A stretch of 64,000 bases of DNA from Maricaulaceae bacterium EIL42A08 (GTDB lineage: Bacteria; Pseudomonadota; Alphaproteobacteria; Caulobacterales; Maricaulaceae), in NCBI GenBank assembly GCA_024178355.1, contig JAMZNZ010000003.1:186001-250000 (forward strand). Direction: 5' to 3'. The notes under the pieces are model-generated. The model made no database searches. It had not been told where the DNA came from and saw only the letters and a program-made list of their open reading frames with translations. Position numbers and translations under genes: made by a program. Shown here one piece after another: positions 3,577 to 27,650 of this stretch. Numbering within the stretch: the first letter of the stretch is position 1; every line of letters begins with the position of its first letter.

Positions 3577-3614
3577 GGGTTTGGACCTTAAGCTGGGCCG
3601 GAAGGTGATCGGGA

Positions 3615-5018
3615 GTGGCAGACATGGATGACAGGCATGAGTTCACGCCGCCAAGGGCGTCGCGCCTGCCATCGGTGCTGTCGCTGGCGCGGACTGTCTG
3701 GCGCGGCGATGGCGATCTGCTTAGCCTTTTGCCCGGTGAAGCCTTCTCGATGGCGGCTGGCGAGCTGGGTTTCTCGCGCCGCTCTATCAAGCTGTTCAAT
3801 GATCCTGAGCTGGTGCGACAGATCCTTCAGGACTCCGAAGGCATCTATCCTAAAAGTGACCTGATGGTGGGCGCGCTGGAGCGGCTGATCGGTGACAGCA
3901 TTTTTGTGTCTGACGGGCCGAAATGGCGTCGCCAGCGGGCGATGATCGACCCGGCCTTTTCCAAGATGCGGCTTAATCTGGCTTTCTCGTCCATGCAGGC
4001 CGCCGTGGCCGATTACACTCAGCGCTTGAATGCCGCTGCCGATGCGGGATCGACGCTGTCGCTTGATCAGGTCACCAGCGAGCTGACCGCCGACATCATC
4101 TGCCGCACGGTGTTTTCTACCTCGCTGGACACGGAAATCTCCCAAGACGTGTTTGAGGATTTTGTGATCTTTGAGCGCAATGTCGCCCAGGTGAAGATCT
4201 GGCGCCTGATCGTGGACCCGGCCTGGACGCAGGTCGAGCAGGACCCTGAGGTCCTTGCCGCCTGTGAACGCATTCGCAAGCATCTGGGCACGCTCACCGA
4301 CACCCATCTCAACGCTGCACCGGGTGAGTATGACGATATCGCCAGCGCGGTGATTGCCGCGCGCGATGCGGACACTGGCGAAGCCTTCACCCGCGAAGGA
4401 TTGATCGACCAGCTGGGTGTCTTCTTTCTGGCAGGGCATGAAACATCTGCCAGCGCGCTGACCTGGGCCTTCTACCTGCTTGCCATGCAGCCGCAGGTCG
4501 CCCAGCGCCTGCGCGACGAGGTCGATGCGGTCACCGCCGGGGGTGACATCAGCTTTGAGGCCATCAAGAAGCTCGTCTTTACCCGTAGCGTCTTTAAAGA
4601 GACCTTGCGGCTTTACCCGCCGATCACCTTCATGCCGCGCGTAGCCGAGAAGGCCGGACAGGTCGGGCCCTACAAAATCCGCAAGGGCGCATTGTTGATG
4701 ATCGCGCCGTGGACGATGCATCGCCACGTCAAATACTGGGACCGACCGGACACCTTTGATCCTGATCGCTTCATGCCCGATGGCCCCGGAGAGACGACGC
4801 CCGGTGCCTATATCCCCTTTGGTGCGGGGCCCCACACCTGTGTGGGCGCAGGCTTTGCAGCAGTCGAAGCGGCCCTGATCCTGGCATCGCTGACCCGCAG
4901 CTTTGAGTTCCACATCGAGGACGCAGACCGCATCCGGCCCGCCGCGCGCCTGACGACCCGCCCGGCTGAACAGATCATGATGCAGGTCAGCCGTCATGAG
5001 GCGCGCGCCTCCAGCTGA
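3615..5018 (+). CDS. Cytochrome P450 monooxygenase
   Basis: 467 residues, soluble, with no membrane anchor. All hallmark motifs are present: the I-helix oxygen-binding segment AGHETSA near residue 275, the K-helix ExxR motif in KETLRLYPP near residue 330, FDPDRF, and the heme-binding loop FGAGPHTCVG with the cysteine ligand near residue 413. Bacterial P450s of this class insert oxygen into lipids, terpenoids or xenobiotics using a separate ferredoxin/reductase. No redox partner gene is next to it, and the substrate cannot be told from sequence. Its 3' end overlaps the convergent ATP-grasp gene by 25 bp. Confidence 0.92.
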   Translation: MADMDDRHEFTPPRASRLPSVLSLARTVWRGDGDLLSLLPGEAFSMAAGELGFSRRSIKLFNDPELVRQILQDSEGIYPKSDLMVGALERLIGDSIFVSDGPKWRRQRAMIDPAFSKMRLNLAFSSMQAAVADYTQRLNAAADAGSTLSLDQVTSELTADIICRTVFSTSLDTEISQDVFEDFVIFERNVAQVKIWRLIVDPAWTQVEQDPEVLAACERIRKHLGTLTDTHLNAAPGEYDDIASAVIAARDADTGEAFTREGLIDQLGVFFLAGHETSASALTWAFYLLAMQPQVAQRLRDEVDAVTAGGDISFEAIKKLVFTRSVFKETLRLYPPITFMPRVAEKAGQVGPYKIRKGALLMIAPWTMHRHVKYWDRPDTFDPDRFMPDGPGETTPGAYIPFGAGPHTCVGAGFAAVEAALILASLTRSFEFHIEDADRIRPAARLTTRPAEQIMMQVSRHEARASS

Positions 5019-6178
5019 TCTGGCGTGGCGACGCTGATATTGTCGGCATCGGGCTGCCACTCGGTATCCAGCGTTGCGGCCTCACCAAAATTGCGGCCCT
5101 CGAAGATGGCCTGTTTAAGGACCGGCCAGGACATGGGCGTCATCAGCGGAAACACGAAGGGATCGCGCGATGACCACAGCACATCGCGACAGCTGGCAAT
5201 GGTCTTGAGTGTCTGAAAATAGCGCCGGGGCTTTAAAATCGTGCTGTAGGCCTTGGTCAGTGCCGTGTGACCTTCCTGGAAGCGGGTCTGCGGTTTAAAA
5301 CGCATGGGATGGTCCAGCGCCCCGCCCATCACCAGTGTTGCCAGATCCTCATGGTTGAAGAAGTGGATACCGCTCGTCAGGCGCGGATTGCATTCCAGCG
5401 GCCAGGGCTTGCCGTCCTCATCGATGATGAAGTCAAAGGCGGTAAAACCGGAAAAATCCGTGGCCGCCACATGGCGACGAACCCAGTCGTCAACGGCGGG
5501 ACGATCAATGCGCTCGAACGCCACTGAAACCGTGCCGGAATAGATAAGGCCGCGATAAACGACGTGACCCAGAACTTCGCCATTCCGGCAGATCGACTGG
5601 GTGCTGACCTCGTGTCCGCGTATGGCTTTCTGAATGACCCAGTCACGGGTTTTCAGGGCGGTCGAAATGGGCGCTCCGGCGGTCAGAAAATGCAGCTTCG
5701 CGCCAGAGCATCCAAAGCGTGCCTTGGCCACTGTATCTGTTCTCGCGGCCAGGTCTGCAGCGCGCGGGTCATCACCCAGATAGCTTTCGGGGGCTGGCAG
5801 CCCGGCGTCGGCCACGTCTTCAATGAAGGCGAACTTATCGTGCAGGTTCAAAAGGGTGGGGTGGGTCTCGCAGAGAAGCTGTGTGTGCACTGGAAGCTGA
5901 TCGGCCAGCAGCGCGACATGCATCACCTCTTCTGAAACCGGGATAACAAGGTCGACGCGTTGGGTGCGACAGATATGAGCCAGGGCGTCCAGATACGCTG
6001 CCTGATCGCGTGCCGGGGCCGGGACCTGAAAACTGCGCGCAACGGCGCGCGAGGGCTTTGACAGGTGCAGGCTGAAGGGGTCAGCCACAAGGACGCGATG
6101 GCCTGCGCCGTGAAGGCAGCGCGCCAGCTCCAGACCCTTGGGGAGCCGCCCCAGGGTTAAAAGGACCGTCTTGCCCAT
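4994..6178 (-). CDS. ATP-grasp domain protein
   Basis: About 394 residues from the ATG giving MGKTVLLTLGR; a further in-frame start 13 codons upstream exists but adds a charged stretch before an obvious beta-strand start, so I prefer the shorter form. The N-terminal 100 residues form a Rossmann-like pre-ATP-grasp domain. The middle carries the ATP-grasp fold with VAKARFGCSGAK (ATP lysine region) and the end motif LECNPRLTSGIHFF, which holds the Mg2+-binding Glu and Asn. Members ligate a carboxylate to an amine or thiol, or act in carbamoyl-phosphate-type reactions. The neighbours (P450, TSUP) do not define the substrate. The last 25 bp overlap the P450 coding sequence on the other strand. Confidence 0.75.
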   Translation of the reverse strand: MGKTVLLTLGRLPKGLELARCLHGAGHRVLVADPFSLHLSKPSRAVARSFQVPAPARDQAAYLDALAHICRTQRVDLVIPVSEEVMHVALLADQLPVHTQLLCETHPTLLNLHDKFAFIEDVADAGLPAPESYLGDDPRAADLAARTDTVAKARFGCSGAKLHFLTAGAPISTALKTRDWVIQKAIRGHEVSTQSICRNGEVLGHVVYRGLIYSGTVSVAFERIDRPAVDDWVRRHVAATDFSGFTAFDFIIDEDGKPWPLECNPRLTSGIHFFNHEDLATLVMGGALDHPMRFKPQTRFQEGHTALTKAYSTILKPRRYFQTLKTIASCRDVLWSSRDPFVFPLMTPMSWPVLKQAIFEGRNFGEAATLDTEWQPDADNISVATPDQLEARAS

Positions 6179-6280: not shown

Positions 6281-7204
6281 CTAGAAAGACATCGCAATCA
6301 GTACGAGGCTGGATGCCACAATCCAGATCGCTGCGCACAGTTTCAAAAGGTAAGCGCCGAGCGCGTGGGCCAGCCGGCGCGCCAGGAAGCCACCCAGCAT
6401 GACCGCCGGGGCGGCATAGATCAGGATCTCAAACACCAGATTGCCCTGGCCAATATGGTAAGGCGTGCCCGCGATCACCGATAGCGCGGAGACGATGACG
6501 GCCGGCGGGACGCAGACTTCCAGTGGATAGCGGCGCAAGAAGAGATAGAGCGCCATCAGCTCGCCGACACCAACTGAAAACATGGCGGTCGCAACCCCGC
6601 CCACAAGGCCAATGACTGCCAGCGCCCACAGATCGGTCGCGGTCAGCTGGGTCTGGCGGTCCGCTTTCTTCTGGGAGAATAAAAGCTGGGCGAGCAGGGT
6701 CAGTCCCAGCACGATGGAAAACGCCTTGAACAGGATAAAGGCGAAGGCCGGATCCGGGCGGATGACAAGCTGGGTAAAGATCAGCGCGGCAATCGAAAGC
6801 GGCGCGCAGATCGCCACAATCCGCAGCCGTGCCATGTCGGCCATCGGCGTGTCGGGAACGGCGCGCAGGCGGCTCAGCCAGGTCAGCGAGCCCACGCTCA
6901 TGCCAAAGGATTGAATGGCAAAGCTGACCCCAACCGTCTGGCTCGGGCTTAAATCCATCACTCCGGTCTCGCGCAGCATGGAAAAAGCTGGCACGAAGAC
7001 CACGCCGCCCCCGACACCGGTGGAGTTCGCGATCAGCGCTCCCAGAAGGCCAACCCCGAAAAAGCTCCAGAAATCACCGAGGCGCGTAATGTCGGGCTGG
7101 CCGAGTACCCAAAGCGCGACATAGGCGCAGACGAGCAGGCACAGGCCAGCTATAATCGCCAGACGGAATACAAAAGCGCCGCGCGCTGAGTCCGGTGTTG
7201 CCAT
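6281..7204 (-). CDS. TSUP (TauE/SafE) family membrane transporter
   Basis: 307 residues with about eight or nine hydrophobic segments. The N-terminal repeat includes GALIANSTGVGGGVVFVP, a typical TSUP signature, and the second half has an equivalent GGVATAMFSVGVGELM. The family exports or imports sulfite, sulfoacetate and other small organosulfur anions, or unrelated organic acids; the substrate here is unknown. It lies downstream of the leftward halogenase operon, but a 114-bp gap with a GC hairpin separates them, so co-transcription is uncertain. Confidence 0.82.
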   Translation of the reverse strand: MATPDSARGAFVFRLAIIAGLCLLVCAYVALWVLGQPDITRLGDFWSFFGVGLLGALIANSTGVGGGVVFVPAFSMLRETGVMDLSPSQTVGVSFAIQSFGMSVGSLTWLSRLRAVPDTPMADMARLRIVAICAPLSIAALIFTQLVIRPDPAFAFILFKAFSIVLGLTLLAQLLFSQKKADRQTQLTATDLWALAVIGLVGGVATAMFSVGVGELMALYLFLRRYPLEVCVPPAVIVSALSVIAGTPYHIGQGNLVFEILIYAAPAVMLGGFLARRLAHALGAYLLKLCAAIWIVASSLVLIAMSF

Positions 7205-7223: not shown

Positions 7224-7243
7224 CGCCCACTCAGCGGTGGGCG
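7224..7243. terminator. GC-rich hairpin between TSUP and halogenase operon
   Basis: CGCCCAC (7224-7230) and GTGGGCG (7237-7243) form a perfect 7-bp stem around a 6-base loop. An outer CCTG/CAGG pair can extend it. There is no long T tract on either strand, so it may be a weak terminator of the halogenase transcript or simply a structured leader of the TSUP gene. Confidence 0.35.
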
Positions 7244-7318: not shown

Positions 7319-8827
7319 TCAGGCCATCTGAACGCGCCGTTTAAGGTAGGGCTCGTGATCCTCAAACTGCTCCAGGCATTTGCCCATGGCACGCCGGATT
7401 TCCGTCATCCGCCGCTCCAGCATCTCGTCGGACATATTGTTGATCACCGGGTGGTAGCGCTTGGGCCGGATATTCTGGCCTTCAAACACCGCAAACCAGC
7501 TATCGATGCCGAACAGCTCGTTGTCATGGCGGTAGAGGCGACCATTTTCCTTGTAGACAGCAATCCGCTGCTCCAGCGAGTCGGGCAGCTTCATGGTGCG
7601 CACATGGTTCCAGAACTCGCTGTCGTCACGCTCTGTGGCGCAATAGTGCAGGATCAGGAAGTCGCGCACCTGTTCAAATTCGGCCAGCGTGCGCGCGTTG
7701 TAGTAATCGATATCGGCCTGATTAAAGAGCTTGTCCGGGAAGTTGGTCATCAACCGGCCAATGGCCGATTGCACCAGGTGGATCGAGGTGGATTCCAGCG
7801 GCTCGAGGAAGCCTGAGGCCAGGCCCAGCGAGACCACATTCTTGTTCCAGGGCTTTTTGCGAATTCCGGTTTTAAACCGCAGGAAGCGCGGGTCGCCGGT
7901 GGGCGCGCCATCAAGGCCCGACTGTAGCGTCGCCAGGGCCTCATCATCGCTGATGAACTCGCTGCAGTAGACATGGCCATTGCCCGTGCGATGCTGCAGC
8001 GGGATGCGCCATTGCCAGCCAGCCTTGTGCGCGGTGGCGCGAGTGTAAGGGGTCAGAGTGCCGACATTCTCGCACTGTTGGGCAATGGCGCGATCAACGG
8101 GAAGATAGTTTGACCAGTCGTCATAGCCTGACTGAAGCGTTTGCTCGATCAGGAGCCCGCGGAACCCCGAACAATCGATGAAGAGCTCGCCGGAAACCTC
8201 TTCACCGGATTCCAGCTTCACGCTTTGAATATGCCCATCCTCGGCGCGCTGATTCACGTCGACAATCCGGCCTTCGATGCGCTGGACGCCGCGCTTCTCG
8301 GCAACCTCGCGCATATACTGGCCATAAAGGGCCGCATCGAACTGGAAGGCGTATTCCAGAGAGGCGAGCGGAGAATTGCGCGCCTGTGGCTGGGGGTGGG
8401 TAAACTTGTTCTGCTTGGCTGCGAGGACCGCCAGATTGTAGTCGTCCGCCGACCGTGCGTTTGCAGACTGAGCCTCACGCAGCCAGAAATGATGGAAGTG
8501 GATACCTTCCATCGCCACGCCGTAGGGGCCAAACGGATGGATATAGCTATCCCCAATCTTGCCCCAGTTCACAAACTCGATGCCGAGCTTGAAGGTCGCA
8601 TTGGTGCGGCGCAGATATTCGTTTTCATCCAGCCCGACGAGCTTGTTGAAGTAGCGAATATGCGGGATCGTCGCTTCGCCGACACCCACCGTGCCGATCT
8701 GTTCAGATTCAATCAGGCGGATATTGATGGACGGGTCGCGCAACAGGATGGAAAGCCCGGCTGCTGCCATCCAGCCAGCGGTGCCACCGCCAACAATCAC
8801 GATATCCTTGATGGTCAGGTCTTGCAT
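7319..8827 (-). CDS. Flavin-dependent halogenase (tryptophan halogenase family), paralogue 1
   Basis: 502 residues, full length for the PrnA/RebH superfamily. The FAD-binding GGGTAGWM motif begins near residue 13. Lys80 in TFKLGIEF aligns with the catalytic lysine (Lys79 in PrnA and RebH). WQWRIP is the flavin-dependent halogenase signature, and the Glu in EPLESTSIHL is the second catalytic residue. It should therefore be able to form HOX from FADH2, O2 and halide and pass it through the tunnel to a substrate. Free tryptophan need not be the substrate: relatives linked to TonB receptors, such as BrvH, prefer indole and bromide. It is last of four paralogues in one leftward operon, 18 bp after paralogue 2. 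No flavin reductase gene is nearby. Confidence 0.92.
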   Translation of the reverse strand: MQDLTIKDIVIVGGGTAGWMAAAGLSILLRDPSINIRLIESEQIGTVGVGEATIPHIRYFNKLVGLDENEYLRRTNATFKLGIEFVNWGKIGDSYIHPFGPYGVAMEGIHFHHFWLREAQSANARSADDYNLAVLAAKQNKFTHPQPQARNSPLASLEYAFQFDAALYGQYMREVAEKRGVQRIEGRIVDVNQRAEDGHIQSVKLESGEEVSGELFIDCSGFRGLLIEQTLQSGYDDWSNYLPVDRAIAQQCENVGTLTPYTRATAHKAGWQWRIPLQHRTGNGHVYCSEFISDDEALATLQSGLDGAPTGDPRFLRFKTGIRKKPWNKNVVSLGLASGFLEPLESTSIHLVQSAIGRLMTNFPDKLFNQADIDYYNARTLAEFEQVRDFLILHYCATERDDSEFWNHVRTMKLPDSLEQRIAVYKENGRLYRHDNELFGIDSWFAVFEGQNIRPKRYHPVINNMSDEMLERRMTEIRRAMGKCLEQFEDHEPYLKRRVQMA

Positions 8828-8845
8828 TTTTCTGTCCTGCTTTGA

Positions 8846-10369
8846 TCAGGCGACCGCTTGGGCCCACGCATAGTTTTTAAGAAAGGCTTCGTGTGAGGGC
8901 ATCTTGGTCACCGCGCCATCCATGGCCGCCTTCATGGACTTCAGACTGCGCGTGATATCGTCTGGGGCCACAGTGCTCGCGATGGGGTCGATTGTCTTTG
9001 GTGCGATATTCTGACCTAGAAGAACGGCTATCCAGCTGGGTTTTGAAAACAGCTCGTCTTCATAGCGAAAGACGCGGCCTGCCTGGCTAAAAAGCTCAAT
9101 CCGGCTTTGTAGCGAGTCCGGGATGTCCATGGTGCGCGTGTGGTTCCAGAAGTCGCTGTCGTCTCGTGCGGTGGCCTTGTAGTGCAGGATAATGAAGTCG
9201 CGCACCTGCTCGAACTTCTGGGTCAGCTGGCGATTATATTCATTGCGAACGACGTCAGGCATATCTGCGGTCGGGAACAAGGCGACGAACTTGCTGATGC
9301 CCTCCTGAATAAGGAAAAGCGAGGTGGATTCCAGCGGTTCCAGGAAGCCGCCTGACAGCCCGATCGCTACGCAATTCTTTTCCCAGAAAGTCTCGCGATG
9401 ACCGGTGCGGAAGCGGATCTTTCGTGGATCGCCAAGCGGCTTGCCATCAAGATCTGCGAGCAGGCTTTCAATTGCCTCGTCATCGCTCATCAGGCTGCTG
9501 GAATAGATGTGACCGTTGCCGGTGCGATGCTGGGTGGGAATGCGCCACTGCCAGCCTGCGCTTTTCGCGGTCGAGATCGTGTAGGGCAGGATGTCACCGG
9601 TTCGCTCACAGGCCACTGCCTGGGCGGTATCGCAGGGCAGCCAGTGGCTCCAGTCCTTGAACCCCACGCCCAGCGTCTTCTCCATGAGGAGCGCACGAAA
9701 GCCCGTGCAGTCAAAGAAGACATCGCCGGGTATGGGCTGCCCGCCTTCAAGCTCGATACCGGTGATGAAGCCGCTTTCGCTGTCCTGCTGGACGTCGACA
9801 ACTTTGCCTTCAACCCGGCGCACCCCGCGGTGTTCGGCATAGCCTCGCAGATATCGCGCATAGGCGGTTGCATCGAAATGGTAGGCATAGCGCAGCTGCG
9901 ACAGGACCGAGCGCGGATTGGGATCGGGCATCGCAAACTTGCCGCCCTTGGCCGCCACGGCGCTGAGGCTGAAATCCTCGATTGAACTGCCCGGATTGTC
10001 CTGAAGATAGCGCAGCCAGAACTGGTGAAAGTCGATACCCTTCATGTCCACGCCGTGAGGACCGAAGGGATGGAAGTAGGTTTCGCCCTGTCGTCCCCAA
10101 TTCTTAAACTGGATGCCCAGCTTGAAGGTCCCGTTGGTCGCCTTCAGAAACTCGGCCTCGCGAATGCCGAGGATGGCGTTGAAATTGATGATGTCGGGGA
10201 TGGTCGCTTCGCCGACGCCCACCGTTCCGATCTGCTCAGATTCCACCAGCGTGATTTCAACCGATTGCGCTGGTAACAGACTCGATAGCGCCGCCGCTGT
10301 CATCCAGCCTGCGGACCCACCGCCGACAATGACAATTTTCTTGATGGAGGGGGACGCTGGGTCAGCCAT
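8846..10369 (-). CDS. Flavin-dependent halogenase, paralogue 2
   Basis: 507 residues from the ATG giving MADPASPSIKK, which overlaps the 3' end of paralogue 3 by 8 bp; a TTG five codons upstream is a less likely start. The FAD motif GGGSAGWM, the catalytic lysine (Lys83 in TFKLGIQF), WQWRIP and the Glu of EPLESTSLFL are all present, so an active halogenase is expected. The C-terminal half has the RTMDIPDSLQSR-type segment shared with the other copies. Translational coupling to the degenerate paralogue 3 suggests the proteins are made in fixed proportion. The substrate is unknown; bromination or chlorination of an indole or phenol is possible from the family. Confidence 0.92.
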   Translation of the reverse strand: MADPASPSIKKIVIVGGGSAGWMTAAALSSLLPAQSVEITLVESEQIGTVGVGEATIPDIINFNAILGIREAEFLKATNGTFKLGIQFKNWGRQGETYFHPFGPHGVDMKGIDFHQFWLRYLQDNPGSSIEDFSLSAVAAKGGKFAMPDPNPRSVLSQLRYAYHFDATAYARYLRGYAEHRGVRRVEGKVVDVQQDSESGFITGIELEGGQPIPGDVFFDCTGFRALLMEKTLGVGFKDWSHWLPCDTAQAVACERTGDILPYTISTAKSAGWQWRIPTQHRTGNGHIYSSSLMSDDEAIESLLADLDGKPLGDPRKIRFRTGHRETFWEKNCVAIGLSGGFLEPLESTSLFLIQEGISKFVALFPTADMPDVVRNEYNRQLTQKFEQVRDFIILHYKATARDDSDFWNHTRTMDIPDSLQSRIELFSQAGRVFRYEDELFSKPSWIAVLLGQNIAPKTIDPIASTVAPDDITRSLKSMKAAMDGAVTKMPSHEAFLKNYAWAQAVA

Positions 10370-11795
10370 GGGCCTGTCTTTCAAGATAGTCTTTCAGCTT
10401 CGCAACATAGAGCCCATGCGGTGGAATTCTGGGCGTTATCTGCTCGATGGATTGGCGAATGCTTGCGAGGGTTTGAGTGGCGTCGACCTGGCTCATGGCA
10501 TCAGCGGTTCGATCATACTGGCGCGGGCGAAGCCCTTTGCCCCAGTGCAGGATCGTCCAGTCCTCGTCATTGAACGGTTCCAGGTCATAGCTCACCAGTA
10601 GCCCGCGGTGCTCAAACTGTGCCAGCTTGCGCTGAAGTTTCTCATCCGGCTCGGTGGGTTGAGCGTCGCGCCAATACACTGAATCCGGTACATCGTCAGA
10701 CTTAACTAGCGTGGTGAGAAACAGGCTGATATGTGCGATATCGTCTCGGTACTGGCGATTATATTCACGCCGCTCCACCTCCATGTTCACGCCAGTTGGA
10801 ATCAAACCCAGCAAGCGCTCGATATCGCGTTGGAGCAACATCATCGGAGCCGGGGTTAGCGGTTCGACGACCGCCGCAGCGTGACCGATGGCAACGCAAT
10901 TGCCGTTCCAGGCCGCGTCCAGTTGGCCAAGCGCGATGTTGAAGCCCTGTTGCTCTGCGTTATTGCCGCGAACAGCCGAGACGTTGAGGCCAAGGGCGCG
11001 ATCCTGAAGGAAGGCGGTGCTGACCCAGCCTTGCGCGCTGGCCTCAACGCTTTGACAGGCCGGGCCTGTTTGGGGCGTTGAGGTCTGGTTTGCCTGGGCG
11101 TGGACCGTGCGCTTGGTGGTAAAAGCTCCGCCCGAACAAAGACTTTCCCGCCGACTGGGACCATTCGCATCGATAACGAGTGTTGCTGTGAGCGTGTCAC
11201 CGTTCTCCAGCGTTAGAGCTGTTATGTTGCCGGCTTGTGTTTCCACCTCGCTGACGCCGCATTCCACGATCTCGACCGGGCTCGATTGCAGGCTTTGATC
11301 AAGGAGGCAGGCCCACTCCATTGGATCAAACTGATAGCCATATTCGGCTCTTGATAAGACTGAGCCCGGGTCACTTGGCGGATGGGCAAAACGCCCGGCA
11401 AGTGCCACTTGCGCTGAAACCAGAAGCGGCTCCAGATCAAGCCCGAGGCGCGTGAGTTGATGGTGCAGGGGTGCCCCGGCCGGCGTGGCAAAAGGCGAAT
11501 GGTGACACTGCATCCAGGACGCGCCACCCAGCCAGTTTTTGAAATGTGTGCCCAACGAGAATGCTGTTGAGCTTCGTCGCAGCAGCCGCGGTTCGTCCAA
11601 TCCCACCGAGCGAAGGAAATTATACGCGGTTGGCGCAGTCACATTGCCATAGAAGCTGTCTTCCGGAGGCGTACTGGGCTGGCCAACCTGGACTATGCGC
11701 CAGGATGGTCCGAGGCTGTTTGAAAGCGCCAAGGCCGCAAGATTGCCCGCAAGTCCGCGACCGATCACGACAAGGGTCTTTTGTGAGGCTACCAT
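10362..11795 (-). CDS. Catalytically degenerate halogenase-family protein (paralogue 3)
   Basis: 477 residues, with an intact open frame and the same overall fold as its neighbours (FKNW after position 80, a late YNRQY segment, a REYNRQYRDDIAHISLF helix). Every recognised active-site feature is changed. The FAD loop reads GRGLAGN instead of GGGxAGW. Ser80 replaces the catalytic lysine. The WQWRIP segment is GWVSTAF. EPLEST is EPLTPA, so the catalytic Glu is Thr. The N-terminal GTVGVGEATIP flavin segment is also missing. It may still bind FAD, or serve as a structural partner, substrate carrier or regulator of the active paralogues. It starts 3 bp after paralogue 4 stops and overlaps paralogue 2, so it is translated within the operon and is not an obvious pseudogene. 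Confidence 0.85.
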   Translation of the reverse strand: MVASQKTLVVIGRGLAGNLAALALSNSLGPSWRIVQVGQPSTPPEDSFYGNVTAPTAYNFLRSVGLDEPRLLRRSSTAFSLGTHFKNWLGGASWMQCHHSPFATPAGAPLHHQLTRLGLDLEPLLVSAQVALAGRFAHPPSDPGSVLSRAEYGYQFDPMEWACLLDQSLQSSPVEIVECGVSEVETQAGNITALTLENGDTLTATLVIDANGPSRRESLCSGGAFTTKRTVHAQANQTSTPQTGPACQSVEASAQGWVSTAFLQDRALGLNVSAVRGNNAEQQGFNIALGQLDAAWNGNCVAIGHAAAVVEPLTPAPMMLLQRDIERLLGLIPTGVNMEVERREYNRQYRDDIAHISLFLTTLVKSDDVPDSVYWRDAQPTEPDEKLQRKLAQFEHRGLLVSYDLEPFNDEDWTILHWGKGLRPRQYDRTADAMSQVDATQTLASIRQSIEQITPRIPPHGLYVAKLKDYLERQAHG

Positions 11796-11798
11796 GGA

Positions 11799-13325
11799 TC
11801 AGCTCGCCGCTTTTGCACGAGGAGACCGGGATGCGGCTCCGTATTGAGCCAGGAATTCCGCCTGAGTTGGCGTTGCTCTTACCGCGTCTGCAGTCTGTGT
11901 CCGGATCGTTTCAAGGCGCTGGTGCAGCTCATCCATCTCATATCGGTCCAGGCGTGGATCGTAATCAGTGGGCATCAGGTTTTGTCCCAACATGACGGCT
12001 AACCAGCTTGGCGGCAGGAAGACGCCGAACTCATAGGCCGGGATATGCCCACGTGACAGCCAGGCCTGAAGTCGCTCATCAAGACTGTCAGGAAGTTTAA
12101 GCGCTCGAAAGTGCCGCCACATCTCGCTGTCATCGCGCTGCGTGGCGATATAGTGAAGAAGCAGGAAGTCACGAACACGCTCGAAGTTGAGGCCCATACG
12201 CCTGTTATATTCATCCACATCAAGTGCTTCGATGCCGGCGGACGGGAAGAGCTCGATCAGCGTCGTAATTCCCTCCTGAATCAAGTGGATCGATGTGGAC
12301 TCAAGAGGCTCCAGGAAGCCAGCCGAGAGGCCTATGCTGACGACGTTGCGATTCCAGAACTTCTTACGGCGCCCGGTCTTGAAATAGAGCTGGTTAGGGT
12401 CTGCGAGCTGGGCACCCTCAAGATTATCGAGTAATTGGGCTATGGCCTCATCATCGGAGATGAACTCGCTGCAATAGACATGGCCATTGCCGGTGCGGTG
12501 CTGCAGGGGGATGCGCCACTGCCAACCGGCGGTACGTGCAGTGGCCCGGGTGTAGGGAGATAGTTCGCCTTTTGACTCACACGGAATGGCTACCGCGCGG
12601 TTGCAAGGGAGCCATTCGCTCCAGTCCTCATAGCCGGTTTCCAGCGTCTGCTCGATCAGGACGCCTCTGAATCCGGAGCAGTCGACAAACAGGTCAGCCT
12701 CGACCTTTGAGCCGTCTTCCAGGCTCAGGGTCTCGACGTGACCTGTTGTCGCGCCCAATCCGATGTCCACGACCCGGCCTTCGACCCTCTTTACGCCTCT
12801 GGCTTCGCTAAAGCTCCGGAGGAATTTTGCGTAAAGGCTGGAATCGAACTGGTAGGCGTATCCGAAGTTTGAACCCACCTCATTCACGTCGCCCTCGGGG
12901 ATTTTGAAGCGGTCCTCCTGCGCAGCGAGAATCGGAAAGGAATAGTCATCAATCCGGTGAGCTTTGCCCGCTTGATGAAGCTTCAGCCAGGCCTGGTGGA
13001 AGTCCAGCTCATCGACAGGAAAGCCATAATCTCCAAAAGGATGGATGTATCGATCGCCCCGTTTGCCCCAGTCGCAAAATTCAATGCCAAGCTTGAAGGT
13101 TGCCTTGGTTGTTTTCATGAAAGTCGGCTCGTCGATTCCCAGCGCCTGATTAAAAAATCGGATGTGTGGCAGTGTTGCCTCACCCACGCCGACGGTGCCG
13201 ATTTGCTCGGATTCAATCAGCGTTATTTCCCCGCCGGCATTAGGGAATTTCGTTGCCAGTGCGGCTGCGGTCATCCAGCCAGCGGAGCCACCACCAAGGA
13301 TGCAGATGCGTGGAAATTGGGGCAC
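11799..13325 (-). CDS. Flavin-dependent halogenase, paralogue 4 (first gene of the operon)
   Basis: 508 residues, beginning at a GTG preceded by an AAGGA ribosome-binding site; no ATG lies closer to the conserved ICILGGGSAGWM strand. Lys78 in TFKLGIEF, WQWRIP and the Glu in EPLESTSIHL are intact, so the enzyme is probably active. It is promoter-proximal and divergent from the TonB receptor, with 146 bp between starts. A GACAACG operator-like site overlaps its ribosome-binding region, which would let one repressor shut off both directions. As with the other copies, halide and substrate are unknown. Confidence 0.92.
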   Translation of the reverse strand: MPQFPRICILGGGSAGWMTAAALATKFPNAGGEITLIESEQIGTVGVGEATLPHIRFFNQALGIDEPTFMKTTKATFKLGIEFCDWGKRGDRYIHPFGDYGFPVDELDFHQAWLKLHQAGKAHRIDDYSFPILAAQEDRFKIPEGDVNEVGSNFGYAYQFDSSLYAKFLRSFSEARGVKRVEGRVVDIGLGATTGHVETLSLEDGSKVEADLFVDCSGFRGVLIEQTLETGYEDWSEWLPCNRAVAIPCESKGELSPYTRATARTAGWQWRIPLQHRTGNGHVYCSEFISDDEAIAQLLDNLEGAQLADPNQLYFKTGRRKKFWNRNVVSIGLSAGFLEPLESTSIHLIQEGITTLIELFPSAGIEALDVDEYNRRMGLNFERVRDFLLLHYIATQRDDSEMWRHFRALKLPDSLDERLQAWLSRGHIPAYEFGVFLPPSWLAVMLGQNLMPTDYDPRLDRYEMDELHQRLETIRTQTADAVRATPTQAEFLAQYGAASRSPRAKAAS

Positions 13326-13329
13326 AGAT

Positions 13330-13344
13330 TGTCCTTCGTTGTCT
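13330..13344 (-). promoter_or_regulatory. LacI-type operator candidate, halogenase/TonB-receptor divergent promoter
   Basis: On the minus strand this reads AGACAACGAAGGACA, which differs from the site before GH16 (TGACAACGGTGGACA) at only three positions. It covers the ribosome-binding region of halogenase 4 and is about 130 bp upstream of the TonB receptor. Assignment to the LacI protein encoded at 21573 is inference from motif sharing. Confidence 0.55.
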
Positions 13345-13389
13345 TTTTTTGTTTGCCAAGTATGGATTTGGCTTTATCAAAAAGATAGC

Positions 13390-13403
13390 GCGTCAGCTAA
13401 CGC
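13390..13403. promoter_or_regulatory. Imperfect palindrome in the divergent promoter
   Basis: GCGTCAGCTAACGC is self-complementary except for one mismatched pair. It sits in the middle of the divergent region between halogenase 4 and the TonB receptor, so it could be a second regulator site. It does not resemble the GACAACG motif. Confidence 0.3.
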
Positions 13404-13471
13404 GTTCAAAATGAGGTAAAAAACCTGCCTTTGCATGCGACAATTTGGCAGGCGCCCGGGGAGGGAATTAA

Positions 13472-16400
13472 ATGATTGATCCAAAAAGCGCTGACCCGTG
13501 GCGGTCGGTGAAGTGTGCCTTGCTTGGCACGTCTGCGCTCGTTGCTGCTGTCAGTATGCCAACGGCGATGGCCCAAGAAGCCGAAGACGCAGACGAGGAG
13601 GCGACGACCGAAGCTGCTGACGTCATCACCGTAACCGGTGTGCGCGGCGCGCTTCTCAACGCTCGTAACTTGCGTCGTGACGCTGACACCTTTGTCGACG
13701 CGATCACGTCCACAGACGTGAACCAGCTTCCAGACCTGTCGGTTGCTGAAGCGTTGTCACGTGTGCCTGGCGTTGTAACCCAGCGCTTCGAGCTTGGTGG
13801 CAGTGACGGTGACTTCCCGTCTCCGGAAGGCTCCGGCAACATCATTCGCGGTCTTCAGTATGCGCGCTCCGAATTCAACGGGCGTGACTCATTTTCCGCG
13901 ACAGGCGGTCGTGCCCTGGAGTGGGCCAGCATCCCGCCAGAGCTGATCGGGGCGGTTGAGGTCTTCAAAAACCAGACAGCGTCCATGATTGAGGGCGGTA
14001 TCTCAGGTACGGTGAACCTGCGCACGCTTGAGCCGTTCGACCGCGACGGTCGGTTTGGTGTGCTCGCTGCGGAAACCATCTATACTGACCTGGCAGAAGA
14101 GTGGAGCCCGGGCTTTAGCGCCATCGTGGGCGACCGCTGGGAAAATGACGCTGGCGAGTTTGGTCTGCTGGCTTCCTTCTCCACCTCTGAGCTGAACTCC
14201 AATGTGGATGGCTTCCAGTACGGCCCGCCGCTGGCGATCCCGAACCCGGACGTTGCCGGCTCAACGATCGCCCTTCCTGGCGGTTGGCAGGCTCGCGATG
14301 CGTCCATCGGGCGTGAACGCGACAGCTACTATGTCGCTGGTCAGTGGCGCTCGCCGAACGGTGACATGGAGCTGACCGTCAAGGCGGTTCGCGTCGAGAA
14401 CGAAATCACGACTCGTGAAAACACGATCGAATTCTTCACCGACGCTGAATCCTGGGCGGCCTGGTCCGTTCTGGGCGGCCCCGAGACCCGCAGCATTGTT
14501 CCGTTCACTTCAGCCGGCATCCCGCGCTGTAACGGTGCTGGTGAAGCTGCAAACGGTGGCATTGGTATCTGTGAGGAGCTCTTCCCGATTGACGGCGGGC
14601 TTATGGAATCCGGTGTTGTGTCCAACAACCTGCGTGACTGGCTGGGTCAGACCGGCAACCTGCAGACACCTCTGCAGTCGCTGGCGATCAATCAGGTCGA
14701 AGAGTCCATGACTCAGGACTTCAGCGCAAACTTCAAGTGGCGTGCAAACGACCGTCTCTTCATTGAGCTGGACGCGCATTACACCGACGCTGAAGCCTCG
14801 CTGGAGCGCCTGTGGGCTGGTGGTAACCACTTTGCTGATTACCGCTTCGATTTCTCTGATGCAGAGAATCCGGAAATCGAGCTGTTCATGTCTGATGCTG
14901 TTCAGCTTGCTACCTGGGGCACCACCCGTGGTCCGAACCCGGGCACGCTGGGCGATCTGGCTGACCCGCGCTTTGGCTACCTGCTCTATTCGGCTGACGA
15001 ATATCAGGACAACTCTGGCGACGCGTTCGCATTCCGCGCAGACGCTGAGTACGAGTTTGACGGTGACGGCTGGTTTGACTCAATTGAGTTCGGTGCCCGT
15101 TTCGCCGAGCGTGAGCAGATCAACCGCAGTGCGGGCCTGAACTGGGGTGGCATCGCTCCGCCTTGGGCTGGTGGCTATCTGCCTTATGCCAACATGAACA
15201 ACCCGAACTTCTATGAGACGTTCAACTTTGCTGGCTTCCAGCGCGGTGGTGTGTTCAGCGGCTTCACTGAGATCGTGTTCCCGAGCCAGGCGAATATGAG
15301 CAATATCGACGCCTACGTTGAATCGCTCTCCAATGAGCCGCTTTTGAATCCGGGCATCAATGCCGATGGCAACCTGCAAATCGGTGATTGGGTTCCGCTC
15401 AAGCAGAACGGTGTGATCGACTATGCCAACCGCGGCATTGACGGCTCCGTTCGCGAGGAGACCACCAACCTTTACACCCAAGTGAACTTCGGTCAGGAGT
15501 TTGCCGGTGGTCAGGCCCTTTCCGGTAACTTCGGTCTGCGCTATGTGCGCACCGAAAATACCGGCGGCGGCGTCATTGGCTATGCGGAGTTCGCACCGGA
15601 TAATCCGGCGGACAACACTGAGCCGCGTGACTTTCTGCCGGAACTTGCAGCGTTGCTTGATACCGCGAATACCCGCAACAGCTTGAGCAATAGCTACGAG
15701 TACGTCCTGCCGTCGTTCAATGCCAAGTGGGATCTCAACGACGATATGTTGCTCCGCTTTGCGGCAAGCCAGGCGATCACGCGTCCAGATATTTCGGCGA
15801 TCAACTCTACTCGTATCGCAGTGTCTGATCTTGGATTTGTGACGTCTCAGGCGACCAACCCGCCGTCTGTTGTGGATGTGGTGCCAAACCGCCTGAACCA
15901 GTTTGGCGGTAACCCACTCCTCGATCCGATCGAGTCCACCAACTATGACGTGGCATTCGAATGGTATTTCGGTGACGATGGTCTGTTCTCGGCGTCCTGG
16001 TTCTACAAGGACCTCGACAATGTGATCGTCTACGGCACCGAGACCCAGGACGTGCTGAACCTTGATGGGTATCAAATTCCTGTTGTCTACAATGGTAATA
16101 TCAACCTGCGTGATGGCACGGTGAATGGTATCGAATTTGCCTACCAGGACTTCTTCACTCAGCTTCCGGGGCTGTTCGGCAATCTTGGTGTTCAGGCCAA
16201 CCTGACCCTTATCTCGTCGGATGCTGAGCCTCTGCCGGCTGTGCGCGACACTGATGGTGATGGCGTTGAAGGCTTCCTGACCGTCTATCGTTGGGGCATC
16301 GATGAGCTGCTCGGCTTGTCCGATACCTCGTACAACCTGATCGGTATCTATCAGGACGACCGGTTTGAGGCCCGTCTGGCTTATAACTGGCGTTCCGAGT

Positions 16401-16642
16401 ACTGGAGTTCCTATCGCGACTACGTGACCGGTAATCCGATCCGTCAGGACGATATCGGGTTCCTCGACGCCTCGGTACGCTGGACGGTCACCGATAATCT
16501 CGAGTTCAGCGTGCAGGCTGCAAACCTTCTGGACACCAAGTCTACGGCAAGCCAGCAAATCGATGCGGCAGGGCAGACCTATGCCCGTTCGGTCTTTGTA
16601 AACGACCGTCGCTTCGAGTTCGGAATTCGCTACGACTTCTAA
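13472..16642 (+). CDS. TonB-dependent outer-membrane receptor
   Basis: 1056 residues with a GGGAGG ribosome-binding site 7-8 bp before the ATG. The signal peptide ends near residue 31 (PTAMAQ). A TonB-box-like DVITVTGVRGA follows, then the plug domain (LPDLSVAEALSRVPGV) and a large 22-strand barrel ending in RRFEFGIRYDF, with the terminal Phe typical of barrels. Length and plug style fit the large alphaproteobacterial receptors that import oligosaccharides rather than the smaller siderophore receptors. Position at the head of a beta-1,3-glucan hydrolase locus suggests uptake of laminarin oligosaccharides; divergence from four halogenase genes is a recurring association for this receptor class. 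Substrate is inference. Confidence 0.93.
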   Translation: MIDPKSADPWRSVKCALLGTSALVAAVSMPTAMAQEAEDADEEATTEAADVITVTGVRGALLNARNLRRDADTFVDAITSTDVNQLPDLSVAEALSRVPGVVTQRFELGGSDGDFPSPEGSGNIIRGLQYARSEFNGRDSFSATGGRALEWASIPPELIGAVEVFKNQTASMIEGGISGTVNLRTLEPFDRDGRFGVLAAETIYTDLAEEWSPGFSAIVGDRWENDAGEFGLLASFSTSELNSNVDGFQYGPPLAIPNPDVAGSTIALPGGWQARDASIGRERDSYYVAGQWRSPNGDMELTVKAVRVENEITTRENTIEFFTDAESWAAWSVLGGPETRSIVPFTSAGIPRCNGAGEAANGGIGICEELFPIDGGLMESGVVSNNLRDWLGQTGNLQTPLQSLAINQVEESMTQDFSANFKWRANDRLFIELDAHYTDAEASLERLWAGGNHFADYRFDFSDAENPEIELFMSDAVQLATWGTTRGPNPGTLGDLADPRFGYLLYSADEYQDNSGDAFAFRADAEYEFDGDGWFDSIEFGARFAEREQINRSAGLNWGGIAPPWAGGYLPYANMNNPNFYETFNFAGFQRGGVFSGFTEIVFPSQANMSNIDAYVESLSNEPLLNPGINADGNLQIGDWVPLKQNGVIDYANRGIDGSVREETTNLYTQVNFGQEFAGGQALSGNFGLRYVRTENTGGGVIGYAEFAPDNPADNTEPRDFLPELAALLDTANTRNSLSNSYEYVLPSFNAKWDLNDDMLLRFAASQAITRPDISAINSTRIAVSDLGFVTSQATNPPSVVDVVPNRLNQFGGNPLLDPIESTNYDVAFEWYFGDDGLFSASWFYKDLDNVIVYGTETQDVLNLDGYQIPVVYNGNINLRDGTVNGIEFAYQDFFTQLPGLFGNLGVQANLTLISSDAEPLPAVRDTDGDGVEGFLTVYRWGIDELLGLSDTSYNLIGIYQDDRFEARLAYNWRSEYWSSYRDYVTGNPIRQDDIGFLDASVRWTVTDNLEFSVQAANLLDTKSTASQQIDAAGQTYARSVFVNDRRFEFGIRYDF

Positions 16643-16701: not shown

Positions 16702-16855
16702 TTCTGCTTCAGGCATCCTCCCGTGCCCAATCAGTGGGGCGGTCGAGAGTGTCGCGGTGCGTTTGGCACCGCATCCTTCTAGACTTGCGGTTCTACGGCG
16801 TTGTGCCCTCGACCGGGCCGGGCTTTCCCGGCATCAGGCCCTCATGGAGACCCAC

Positions 16856-19438
16856 ATGAAGACCCTTTCTTCCAAATTCAACGCGCTCTTCACGACTGCT
16901 TCGGTCTGCGTTCTGGCGCTGGCGGCATGCGCTCCGGATGAGGATGCCGCGCCAGCTTCATCCCGAAACGATGCGCAGACGTCATCTGACGTCCAAAGCA
17001 CGGCCATTACAGTGTCCAACGGCACCAGCAGTGTCGTGGTAGATCCGGCCAACTGGCCGGAAGGTCAGTCCGGCGTGGCCCGCGACCCGGACGTCGAGGC
17101 TTTTGTTGCCGATCTGGTGTCGCGCATGAGCGTTGAAGAAAAAGTCGGTCAGGTTCTGCAAGCCGATATCTCCGAAGTTACACCGGAGCTGGCTCAGCAG
17201 TATAATCTTGGCTCTGTCCTCAACGGCGGAAATTCCGGGCCTTACAACAATAACTTCGCGCCACCATCCGACTGGCTGCAGTTGGCGGACGAGTATTATG
17301 TGGCCTCCACCGACACCTCAGATGGCGGCGTCGGCATTCCCATAATCTGGGGTACGGACGCGGTGCACGGCCACTCCAACATTGTTGGGGCCACGCTCTT
17401 TCCCCACAATATCGGGCTGGGCGCAGCGAACAGTCCCGAGCTGATGTATCAGATTGGCGAAATCACCGCGCTTGAGATTCGGGCCACGGGCCAGGACTGG
17501 ACGTTTGCTCCGACCCTGGCTGTTGTTCAGAACGATACCTGGGGGCGGACATATGAGGGGTTCTCCGAGCGTCCGGAAATCGTCGCCAATCTCAGCGCGC
17601 CGCTGGTGGAAGGCCTGCAGGGCGCGGCCGACACCGATGAGTTTCTGAATGGCCCCCACATCGTGTCGACGGCCAAGCACTGGGTTGGCGATGGTGGCAC
17701 CTATCTGGGCCGAGACCAGGGCGATAACCGAGCCAGCGAAGCAGACATGCGCGACATTCATGCGGCGGGCTATCCGCCAGCGATTGCTGCGGGTGTACAG
17801 ACGGTGATGGCCTCGTTTAATTCCTGGCATGGCGTGAAGATGCACGGCAATGGAGCCATGCTTCAGGACGTGCTGGTCGACCGGATGGGCTTTGATGGTT
17901 TTGTCGTGGGCGACTGGGAAGGCCATGGACAGATTGCCGGCTGCACCAATGAGGACTGTCCTCAGGCCCTGATCGCCGGTGTCGATATGTATATGGCTTC
18001 CGGTAGCTGGCAGGAGCTCTACTACTCGCTACTCGAAGACGTGCAGGACGGGACCGTCCCGATGGAGCGTCTGGACGAGGCTGTGACGCGCATCCTGCGT
18101 GTAAAGGCCCGCGCTGGCCTGTTTGAAGGCCTTGCCCCGTCTGAGCGCCCGCAGGCCGGTGACTTTGACCTTCTGGGCCATCCCGATCACCGCGCCGTGG
18201 CCCGTGAGGCTGTGCGTAGCTCGCTGGTTCTTCTGAAGAATGACACTGGACTGCTCCCGCTCGACCCGAGCCTGAATATCCTTATGGCTGGCGACGGCGC
18301 CGATAATATCGGCAAGCAGTCGGGCGGCTGGACGATCAACTGGCAGGGTGATGGCCACAGCAATGACGTCTTCCCCGGTGGCCAGTCCATCTATGACGGC
18401 TTTGTCGATGCGGTTGCCGGGTCTGGTGGCTCTGTAGCCTTGAGCGAAGATGGCTCCTACACCGAGCGTCCCGATGTGGCGGTCGTCGTGTTTGGCGAAG
18501 ATCCCTATGCGGAGTTTGTCGGTGATCAGGAGTTTGTGAACTTCCCGGATGAACGCGGCCTCAATCTTCTGCGCCAGTACCAGGCCGATGGCATCCCGAC
18601 GCTGGCGATTTTCCTGTCAGGCCGTCCGCTCTGGATGAACCGCGAGCTTAATGCGTCAGATGCTTTCGTCGCGGCCTGGCTTCCAGGCTCTGAAGGTGGC
18701 GGTGTGGCAGACGTATTGGTGGGCAATGCCGAGGGCGCAGCGCGCCACGATTTCGTTGGCCAACTCTCCTATTCCTGGCCGCAGCGCGCCGACCAGACGG
18801 TCCTGAATCCCCATGATGAGGGCTATGATCCGCTCTTTGCTTATGGCTATGGCCTGAGCTACGCTGAACCCGGTGAACCGGTGGGTGAGCTCAGCGAAGA
18901 GAGCGGTCTGACTGAAAGCGATGCTGGCACGGCCACGGCCTTGATGACCAACGGCCGCGTCGCAGCCGGGATGGAGCTGGCTCTGGTGTCCGGTGACGAG
19001 CGTGTTGCTGTCAGTGGCCCTGATGCTGCGATCGGTGACACGTCTATCGCCATCACCCTCGACGATCGTGACGTGCAGGATGACAGCCGTCGCGTGAACT
19101 GGACCGCTGAAGCCGGCTTCCAGATCACTGGCGAAGCCATGTCGCTCGATGCAAGTCAGCTCCTGCAGATATCATATCAGGTCACCGAGCGTGGCGAAGG
19201 TCCCGTGACGGTGTCTGTTGGCGGTGCCGCGATCGACATCACAGCGGGCATTCGACTGGCGGAGGGCAAGGGCTGGCGCTCCGGTGTCATTGCGATGTCC
19301 TGCTTTGCTGATGCTGGCGCAGACCTCAGTGCCGTTGATATGCCGTTTGCAATGACGGGCCCGGCCGGGCTTGAGTTCTGGGTTGATGATGTCTCGGTCG
19401 GCGGTGAAGCCACTGACGACATGACCTGCGAGCTGTAA
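16856..19438 (+). CDS. GH3 exo-beta-glucosidase/glucanase, lipoprotein
   Basis: About 860 residues from the ATG at 16856, which has GGAGA six bases upstream; longer in-frame starts lack a ribosome-binding site. The signal peptide ends in the lipobox LALAAC, so the mature protein is lipid-anchored, probably facing the periplasm or cell surface. The GH3 N-terminal barrel holds KHWVGDGGT and the nucleophile Asp in VVGDWEGHG; the second alpha/beta domain contains VVVFGEDPYAEFVGD. A C-terminal beta-rich extension of about 170 residues ends with FWVDDVSVGG. This layout resembles exo-1,3/1,4-beta-glucanases such as ExoP of Pseudoalteromonas. It would release glucose from the ends of laminarin-type glucans beside the TonB receptor. 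Confidence 0.9.
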   Translation: MKTLSSKFNALFTTASVCVLALAACAPDEDAAPASSRNDAQTSSDVQSTAITVSNGTSSVVVDPANWPEGQSGVARDPDVEAFVADLVSRMSVEEKVGQVLQADISEVTPELAQQYNLGSVLNGGNSGPYNNNFAPPSDWLQLADEYYVASTDTSDGGVGIPIIWGTDAVHGHSNIVGATLFPHNIGLGAANSPELMYQIGEITALEIRATGQDWTFAPTLAVVQNDTWGRTYEGFSERPEIVANLSAPLVEGLQGAADTDEFLNGPHIVSTAKHWVGDGGTYLGRDQGDNRASEADMRDIHAAGYPPAIAAGVQTVMASFNSWHGVKMHGNGAMLQDVLVDRMGFDGFVVGDWEGHGQIAGCTNEDCPQALIAGVDMYMASGSWQELYYSLLEDVQDGTVPMERLDEAVTRILRVKARAGLFEGLAPSERPQAGDFDLLGHPDHRAVAREAVRSSLVLLKNDTGLLPLDPSLNILMAGDGADNIGKQSGGWTINWQGDGHSNDVFPGGQSIYDGFVDAVAGSGGSVALSEDGSYTERPDVAVVVFGEDPYAEFVGDQEFVNFPDERGLNLLRQYQADGIPTLAIFLSGRPLWMNRELNASDAFVAAWLPGSEGGGVADVLVGNAEGAARHDFVGQLSYSWPQRADQTVLNPHDEGYDPLFAYGYGLSYAEPGEPVGELSEESGLTESDAGTATALMTNGRVAAGMELALVSGDERVAVSGPDAAIGDTSIAITLDDRDVQDDSRRVNWTAEAGFQITGEAMSLDASQLLQISYQVTERGEGPVTVSVGGAAIDITAGIRLAEGKGWRSGVIAMSCFADAGADLSAVDMPFAMTGPAGLEFWVDDVSVGGEATDDMTCEL

Positions 19439-19560: not shown

Positions 19561-19610
19561 AGTGCGAGCAGGGCGAATAAACCGCCCAGTCCATGCCATG
19601 GGAGTATCAG

Positions 19611-20513
19611 ATGTCGAACCCTTATAACCGCAAGCTGGCCCTGTCTGGCCTTGATATGAGCCGGATTGACGAGCCGTCGATGGGGTCGATTATCGAAGAG
19701 GTCGTAACTGACAAGCTCCATGGTCTGGCCTTTAGTCCCTATGTGGATGGCCAGGACAATATGACCGAGGTAAGCGCCGATCAGATCCGTGAGCGCATGG
19801 CCATGCTAGCACCCCATACCAGGTGGATCCGTACGTTTTCCTGTACTCGTGGCAATGAATTGAGCCCGGGCGTTGCTCAGGAGCTGGGCCTGAAAACCAT
19901 GGTTGGTGTCTGGATTGATGACGATCTGGAGCACAATGAAGAAGAGCTTGCCAACGGGCTGGAGATCGCCAAGCGCGGCGAGGCCGGCATTCTCGCCATT
20001 GGCAATGAGGTCATGCTGCGCGAGGAAATCTCGGAAGACCAGCTCATTGCCTATATCGAGCGCGCCAAGGCCGAGCTGAAAGAAGCGGGCGTGGACGTAC
20101 CGGTGGGCTACGTGGACGCCTACTTCCTGTTTGAAAACCATCCGCGTGTGGCTGATGCCTGTGATGTGGTGCTGGTCAATTGCTATCCCTTCTGGGAGGG
20201 CTACCCGATCGAGCATGCCAATATCTATATGCGTGAAATGTATCGCCGGGCCCAGAATGTGGCCAAGGGCAAGAAGGTTATCATTGCCGAAACCGGCTGG
20301 CCCAATATCGGCACGGCAGATCGCGGAGCGGTTCCATCGCGCGCCAACGCCATGAAATACTTCATCGATGCGGTGCGCTGGACCGATGAAGAGGGCATCG
20401 AGCTTTTCTACTTCGCCGGTTTTGATGAAGCCTGGAAAATCGCCAAGGAAGGCGATGTTGGGGCCTATTGGGGCCTCTGGGACAAGGATGGCAATCCGAA
20501 ATACTTCGCCTGA
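19611..20513 (+). CDS. GH17 family beta-1,3-glucanase, cytoplasmic form 1
   Basis: 300 residues from the ATG at 19611, which has GGGAG six bases upstream; an earlier in-frame ATG lacks this. GH17 TIM-barrel signatures are clear: the acid/base Glu in AIGNEVMLRE and the nucleophile Glu in IAETGWPN, which matches the plant/fungal GH17 pattern. The protein begins with a polar stretch and no signal peptide or lipobox, so it should stay in the cytoplasm. It would cleave or transglycosylate beta-1,3-glucan oligosaccharides after import. The stop overlaps the next GH17 start (TGATG), so the two are translationally coupled. Confidence 0.87.
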   Translation: MSNPYNRKLALSGLDMSRIDEPSMGSIIEEVVTDKLHGLAFSPYVDGQDNMTEVSADQIRERMAMLAPHTRWIRTFSCTRGNELSPGVAQELGLKTMVGVWIDDDLEHNEEELANGLEIAKRGEAGILAIGNEVMLREEISEDQLIAYIERAKAELKEAGVDVPVGYVDAYFLFENHPRVADACDVVLVNCYPFWEGYPIEHANIYMREMYRRAQNVAKGKKVIIAETGWPNIGTADRGAVPSRANAMKYFIDAVRWTDEEGIELFYFAGFDEAWKIAKEGDVGAYWGLWDKDGNPKYFA

Positions 20514-25231: not shown

Positions 25232-25269
25232 ACAGCCAAGATTGGCGTGCGGCACGGGTTGAAACTCAA

Positions 25270-25286
25270 AATGACAACGTTTACCA
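25270..25286 (+). promoter_or_regulatory. LacI-type operator candidate, cytoplasmic GH3 promoter
   Basis: AATGACAACGTTTACCA has a perfect left half-site identical to the GH17 operator read on its minus strand, and a degenerate right half. It ends 30 bp before the GH3 start. Confidence 0.55.
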
Positions 25287-25316
25287 GCATCCTTAAAACT
25301 ATTGGGGAGATGGCCA

Positions 25317-27539: not shown

Positions 27540-27650
27540 GAAGATCGGCCTGAGCCGCGCCAAAGCCGCGCACTCTCGCATTATCCCTTTCTACTTATGG
27601 CCGATTTGCGCCAAACATAGCCCCTATAAATGTCCGGGGAGGGACACATA

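Follow-up and report, generated by a model that had tools for sequence, protein, structure and literature searches.

A receptor-linked array of three predicted halogenases and a conserved degenerate paralogue in Maricaulaceae bacterium EIL42A08

Halogenase genes beside TonB receptors are already known, and neighbourhoods combining a receptor, a halogenase and a cupin have been viewed in terms of halogenated siderophores. The enzymes described here belong to the Pfam family Trp_halogenase (PF04820), as does the peptide tryptophan halogenase MibH (PDB 5uao), which acts on a peptide. Their closest studied relatives are BrvH (PDB 6frl) and Xcc4156 of Xanthomonas campestris (PDB 6y1w). According to the available portions of the two accounts, both enzymes halogenate in vitro at low rates and the native substrate of each is unknown (PMC5945002, PMC7336383), so that the preliminary description of this DNA was right to call the physiological substrate of such relatives unsettled. 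BrvH brominates indole weakly and has a second halogenase gene upstream of its own (PMC5945002), and a peptide substrate has been proposed for both BrvH and Xcc4156 (PMC7336383), again as far as the accessible text of these papers extends. The same portion of the BrvH account is silent on a dead paralogue, on an order of four genes and on a receptor, with zero occurrences of "tonb" (PMC5945002). Xcc4156 has been studied as one enzyme, and a quartet like the one described below is absent there. A literature search at title and abstract level, with subscription literature mostly outside its scope, found no publication describing the receptor-halogenase association; the available part of one paper (PMC11337851) uses the same terms in another context.

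Gene order and active sites

The window, a stretch of 64,000 nucleotides of the EIL42A08 genome, contains four PF04820 genes on the minus strand, running from 13325 to 7319. In transcription order these are position 1 (P0004, 11799–13325, 627 bits), position 2 (P0003, 10362–11795, 192 bits), position 3 (P0002, 8846–10384, 620 bits) and position 4 (P0001, 7319–8827, 648 bits), all above the Pfam cut-off of 21 bits and separated by a 3-bp gap, a 23-bp overlap and an 18-bp gap, respectively. The start of P0002 was placed at a TTG at 10384, the choice that makes the frame longest; an ATG in the same frame 15 bases inward is equally likely. The array lies head to head with a TonB-dependent receptor gene of the TIGR01782 type on the plus strand (13472–16642; 565 bits, cut-off 310), and the divergent promoter region between the two starts measures 146 bp (13326–13471). 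Thus, the open reading frames, family scores and active-site residues agree with the initial account of three apparently intact halogenases and a degenerate paralogue in a tight array, back to back with a TonB receptor.

Directly behind the array, on the same strand, lies a gene for a TauE/SafE-family membrane protein (6281–7204), homologues of which occur near the array in two other genomes (G002 and G036); a dyad at 7224 may mark the operon end ahead of this gene. Farther on, at 2800–5060, two open reading frames of 258 and 490 aa located by an ATP-grasp gene gave no Pfam match at 0.001.

We aligned 133 halogenase-family proteins from 39 loci; in the window, positions 1, 3 and 4 keep the GxGxxG and WxWxIP motifs together with the catalytic lysine and glutamate (K78 and E342 in position 1), residues and motifs whose roles we take to be those established for PrnA and RebH. 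These three proteins are predicted flavin-dependent halogenases with apparently complete active sites. Across the 27 loci with a dead copy that we used, both catalytic residues are kept in all 76 other array members with readable columns, two further members cut by contig ends being left out of the count. The N-termini of the quartet, inspected by eye, open straight into the flavin-binding fold with no evident signal peptide; the enzymes appear to be cytoplasmic, and as such would not meet external phlorotannins. As had been stated, no flavin reductase is near: the sole PF01613 match of the genome is on a different contig.

Using P0001 and P0003 as queries, we compared the quartet with relatives of solved structure. 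The top match of P0001 is PDB 9luq (E 1.1e-157), titled "Tryptophan halogenase", followed by BrvH (5.7e-141) and Xcc4156 (3.3e-138); P0001 is thereby of the BrvH/Xcc4156 type, both entries scoring below 1e-137, as against 1e-86 and weaker for the tryptophan halogenases. Xcc4156 is also the best solved relative of P0003 (7.8e-38). MibH, one of the weaker matches that P0001 has over its full length (E 1.5e-54), is not its closest kin, a distance that by itself leaves a peptide substrate possible. It is conceivable that halogenation is not what the three intact members do in the cell, and that they serve there as flavin oxidases, monooxygenases or sensors, given that the native activity of their closest studied relatives is unknown and the in vitro rates are low in the accessible text (PMC5945002, PMC7336383). 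We consider this rather unlikely, because the lysine and glutamate are retained without exception among the readable active members and the relatives, by the same accounts, do halogenate in vitro.

The degenerate second member

In P0003, serine stands in place of the catalytic lysine, threonine in place of the glutamate, and GWVSTAF in place of WxWxIP. Judged by its fold and sequence the protein is a member of the family; judged by its active site it is no halogenase. Among 398 genomes of the order, 29, representing 12 of 59 genera, gave matches to this dead copy (E up to 1e-60), with one match per genome among the best four or fewer scored candidates; as each genome search scored at most 4 or 5 candidates, copy numbers are lower bounds. 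Together with one more genome, G033, this gives 30 carriers, of which 27 loci were used (G390, G399 and G232 were left out), and residues were counted on 26 because the ORF caller missed the dead copy of G272. Both catalytic residues are missing in all 26: the lysine site holds serine in 23, alanine in 2 and cysteine in 1, and the glutamate site holds threonine in 21 and serine in 5. The loss extends to 61 columns that reach a conservation of 97 percent or more among active members and are kept in less than 30 percent of dead copies; since residues of the flavin-binding loop are among them, flavin binding by the dead copy is doubtful. At the same time, the dead copies hold invariant residues of their own, such as W94, A137, H138, G153 and P317. 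A model of the dead copy built with AlphaFold2 from five sequences reached a mean pLDDT of 41.7 and was set aside.

Such extensive loss, along with non-synonymous change two to four times faster than in the sister genes, is what a decaying pseudogene would display. Against this identity, none of the 29 listed frames of the dead copy contains a stop codon, its place in the array is fixed, it has its own invariant residues, and its dN/dS is well below 1 wherever this could be measured: 0.27 in the two least saturated pairs, for which the sisters gave 0.05–0.11, and 0.08–0.22 in three other pairs with high saturation, three more pairs being saturated. By these ratios the dead copy is under purifying selection, and we reject decay as its identity, leaving that reading a minimal residual chance. 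In a tree of 129 rows, the dead copies form one clade with a support of 100, although their long branches make its exact place unsure. An orthologue is also found beyond the order, in locus L145 (575 bits to a dead-copy HMM). Separately, further degenerate second members were seen in loci L041, L042, L043 and L048.

The position of the dead copy is part of a conserved arrangement. At 22 of the 27 loci, four same-strand genes occur with the dead copy second; in two of the others the dead copy is third and the receptor gene splits the array, two are three-gene arrays (one of them contig-cut), and the fifth is the locus with the dead copy missed by the ORF caller. The receptor stands beside the array in 23 of the 27, with 19 head to head, 3 convergent and 1 co-directional; among the remaining four, one lies on a very short contig, and one was untabulated, its dead copy being uncalled, though a receptor ORF is nearby. 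When the labels of the three active positions were mapped on the 129-row tree, 2, 2 and 3 changes sufficed; the positions form separate clades, and P0004 falls into that of the position-1 genes. As judged from this gene order and tree, the receptor and the quartet have long been inherited together as one block, and its recurrence in relatives means that the arrangement is not due to chance. Two genomes carry second four-gene arrays (G116:C41:197608-203247 and G209:C7:411237-416879), each with a weakly matching second gene and its own TIGR01782 receptor.

The receptor and its glycan neighbours

A hand count in six genomes of the order, leaving out one weak PF04820 row (19 bits, G031), placed 40 of 41 PF04820 genes in arrays adjoining a TIGR01782 receptor, and 12 of 19 above-cut-off TIGR01782 receptors had such an array. 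In nine further genomes, a TIGR01782 receptor is located no more than 4.5 kb from 55 of the 70 PF04820 genes and no more than 8 kb from 62, with the other 8 farther away, and 39 of 95 receptors are halogenase-linked while 56 are without a halogenase (95 of 98 receptor rows were used, three fragment or low-scoring rows being left out). We also sampled the phylum at 60 loci, chosen non-randomly among the strong matches listed, six of which (L127, L132, L133, L134, L143 and L170) dropped out as no halogenase ORF was called in them. In this sample, a receptor is found within 5 kb in 45 of the 54 remaining loci, and two of the other nine have another receptor type.

Typing the receptors of the phylum sample with a purpose-built HMM separated two sorts of locus. 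Of the 14 loci with a close, window-like receptor, 8 have a degenerate halogenase, versus 1 of the 40 others, and overall 45 of the 54 are without one, whereas SapC is present in none of the 14 and in 14 of the 40. The dead partner is thus tied to one receptor type and SapC to the other. Loci with the order receptor, SapC, Cupin_8 and halogenase resemble the present one in that a TIGR01782-like receptor and a PF04820 enzyme are adjacent, but their receptor is more distant and mostly co-directional, and SapC and a cupin take the place of the dead paralogue.

Downstream of the receptor, all on the plus strand, the window carries a GH3 glycosidase gene (16757–19438), two GH17 genes (19593–20513 and 20468–21466, together spanning 19593–21466), a LacI-family regulator (21573–22595), a GH16 gene (22746–23747), and then an MFS_2 transporter, a second GH3 and an SSF transporter (23783–29297). 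Receptor, glycoside hydrolases, LacI regulator and inner-membrane transporter are therefore found together, the combination of a TonB-receptor carbohydrate locus, and from the gene content we infer a substrate of the beta-glucan type. The genome has six PF04820 genes in total, the quartet and one pair on contig 4; that pair flanks another TIGR01782 receptor with a LacI gene, an MFS gene and an alpha-amylase homologue that clusters with the alpha-amylase of a sister genome. Other halogenase loci carry GH43, alpha-amylase, pullulanase-type or fucosidase genes. On these neighbourhood counts, the constant partner of the halogenases is the receptor, and the glycan genes vary.

How far the glucan link extends was gauged from two of the hydrolases, with GH typing near the quartets based on window seeds and selected Pfam checks, so that apparent GH absences stand as lower bounds. 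Eleven loci have a receptor that scores above 1400 against that of the window, and 8 of these carry a GH3 homologue scoring above 1200 just past it; none of the 12 with a more distant receptor does. GH17 was matched in 16 of the 398 genomes and the dead copy in 29, with 8 in common (hypergeometric p 2.6e-6, uncorrected for relatedness), and 21 of the 29 dead-copy genomes gave no GH17 match; on these figures we reject a strict GH17 specificity of the quartet. Taken together, these counts make the glucan link, by gene content, a real property confined to one receptor subclade. The association of the array with beta-glucan genes proposed at the outset is thus non-random, and a neighbourhood search does recover a conserved link to glucan hydrolases, though for that subclade alone.

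This limit weakens the idea that indoles, phenols or phlorotannin-like compounds met during feeding on algal laminarin are the substrates. Laminarin-type genes do adjoin the receptor, GH17 and the dead copy co-occur, the same GH3 recurs in most close-receptor loci, and BrvH brominates indole, if weakly, in the available text (PMC5945002). Set against these points are the many dead-copy genomes that yielded no GH17, the like enzymes at alpha-amylase, GH43 and fucosidase loci, and the apparently cytoplasmic location. We find this reading quite improbable, and the counts do not support glucan feeding or algal aromatics as the explanation of the halogenases that was proposed earlier; the receptor is the more constant neighbour. 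The retention of the dead copy in related bacteria likewise suggests that it is the receptor, and no single algal sugar, for which the quartet works.

An alternative tied to the receptor is that the enzymes produce a halogenated small molecule, such as a siderophore-like compound, a signal or an antibiotic, exported and then re-imported by the linked receptor. Other PF04820 enzymes, including the PDB relatives PrnA and RebH, serve secondary metabolism, and import of such a product by the receptor is conceivable. However, a scan of 40 window proteins found biosynthetic scaffold genes for carotenoid and bacteriochlorophyll only, the receptors lie among glycan genes, and three active copies are kept in fixed order; we judge the small-molecule reading unlikely.

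Proposed function and control region

We favour a different explanation, at a probability of about 0.4, namely that the quartet is a halogenase module of the cytoplasm that is coupled to the receptor, includes a conserved pseudo-halogenase as partner, and has as its target an aromatic, perhaps peptidyl, substrate associated with the receptor. In this receptor module the quartet would supply the enzymes on the cytoplasmic side, and receptor, hydrolases and halogenases would be made together once a sugar lifts LacI-type repression. The three enzymes would take FADH2 from a flavin reductase encoded elsewhere in the genome and use it with O2 and bromide or chloride on an aromatic target tied to receptor function, a peptidyl or tryptophan-like group being likelier than an algal phenol. 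The dead paralogue could serve its sisters as a non-catalytic partner, through heteromer formation, substrate presentation or regulation. In favour of this explanation we count the consistent loss of catalytic residues in a dead copy kept under constraint, the fixed gene block, the constancy of the receptor amid varied glycan genes, a palindrome that recurs in the divergent regions (see below) and the peptide substrate proposed for BrvH and Xcc4156; against it stand the halogenase-family genes that have no receptor nearby, the many receptors that lack a halogenase, the scarcity of degenerate members in the phylum sample, the missing palindrome in the window's own divergent region, which also shares no 10-mer with the GH promoters, and a tryptophan excess of linked receptors that did not recur outside the order.

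A more specific version holds that the enzymes act in the cytoplasm and halogenate tryptophans either in the precursor of the linked receptor or in a small partner protein, that the dead paralogue is the subunit presenting the substrate, and that this tunes the aromatic surface with which the receptor binds sugar. Within the order, halogenase-linked receptors contain 1.74 percent tryptophan (n=12) versus 0.85 percent in unlinked ones (n=7; p 4.5e-4). The excess was not repeated in nine further genomes, at 1.37 (n=19) versus 1.21 percent (n=11; p 0.20; 30 sequences of the nine-genome receptor set), and we rejected tryptophan enrichment as a trait of linked receptors, the pooled value being carried by the first set alone. 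For this reason the receptor tryptophan stays a guess as substrate, and we hold the specific version to be highly doubtful.

The enzymes of the quartet are themselves of a known kind. Novelty appears to lie in the conservation of the dead member, in four orthologous positions that keep their order, and in the inheritance of the array together with a receptor type over differing glycan loci. Three intact genes and a dead sister, recurring as a set with one kind of receptor while the glycan genes differ, narrow the search for the substrate of BrvH-type enzymes to features that these receptors share, and the dead sister offers an experimental handle beyond those that single enzymes provide. If the product were a halogenated protein or peptide, it would add to the known modifications of bacterial proteins a new type, one linked to nutrient uptake.

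We separately explored the divergent regions between array and receptor, using 21 regions from related loci (19 with a dead copy, the window included, and two others), each extended by 60 bases into both flanking frames. A 16-bp palindrome with a central CG, a class picked after a first look, occurs in 14 of the 21, compared with 0.51 expected from dinucleotide shuffles. Its forms include TTGACAGCGCTGTCAA and ATGATAACGTTATCAT, which resemble operators of the LacI family. The window's own divergent region is one of the 7 without this palindrome, and different palindromes precede its LacI and GH16 genes. A shared operator in the window, represented by the dyad at 13389, was tried and dropped, with 5 matches against 4.4 expected, not above chance; nor were any 10-mers of the divergent region found in the other gaps of at least 40 bp between 6 and 31 kb, the GH promoters among them.

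Two kinds of accompanying genes deserve mention. At 9 to 11 of the 39 loci, mostly directly behind the array, are genes for a secreted TPR protein and a secreted protein of about 205 aa (both, for instance, at L040:2274-2972:+ and L040:3052-3678:+), neither of which is present in the EIL42A08 window. The TPR protein has a TonB-box-like stretch of the IDEIIVTGT type near its N-terminus, and the protein of about 205 aa has, by eye, the look of a carbohydrate-binding jelly roll. In the window, the glucan locus is adjoined by a photosynthesis gene cluster (34480–63266) with phytoene synthase and desaturase-like genes, TspO, NifH/BchX-type and nitrogenase-like reductases, a reaction-centre protein, PucC and CobN/Mg-chelatase, and aerobic anoxygenic phototrophy is a possible lifestyle of the organism.
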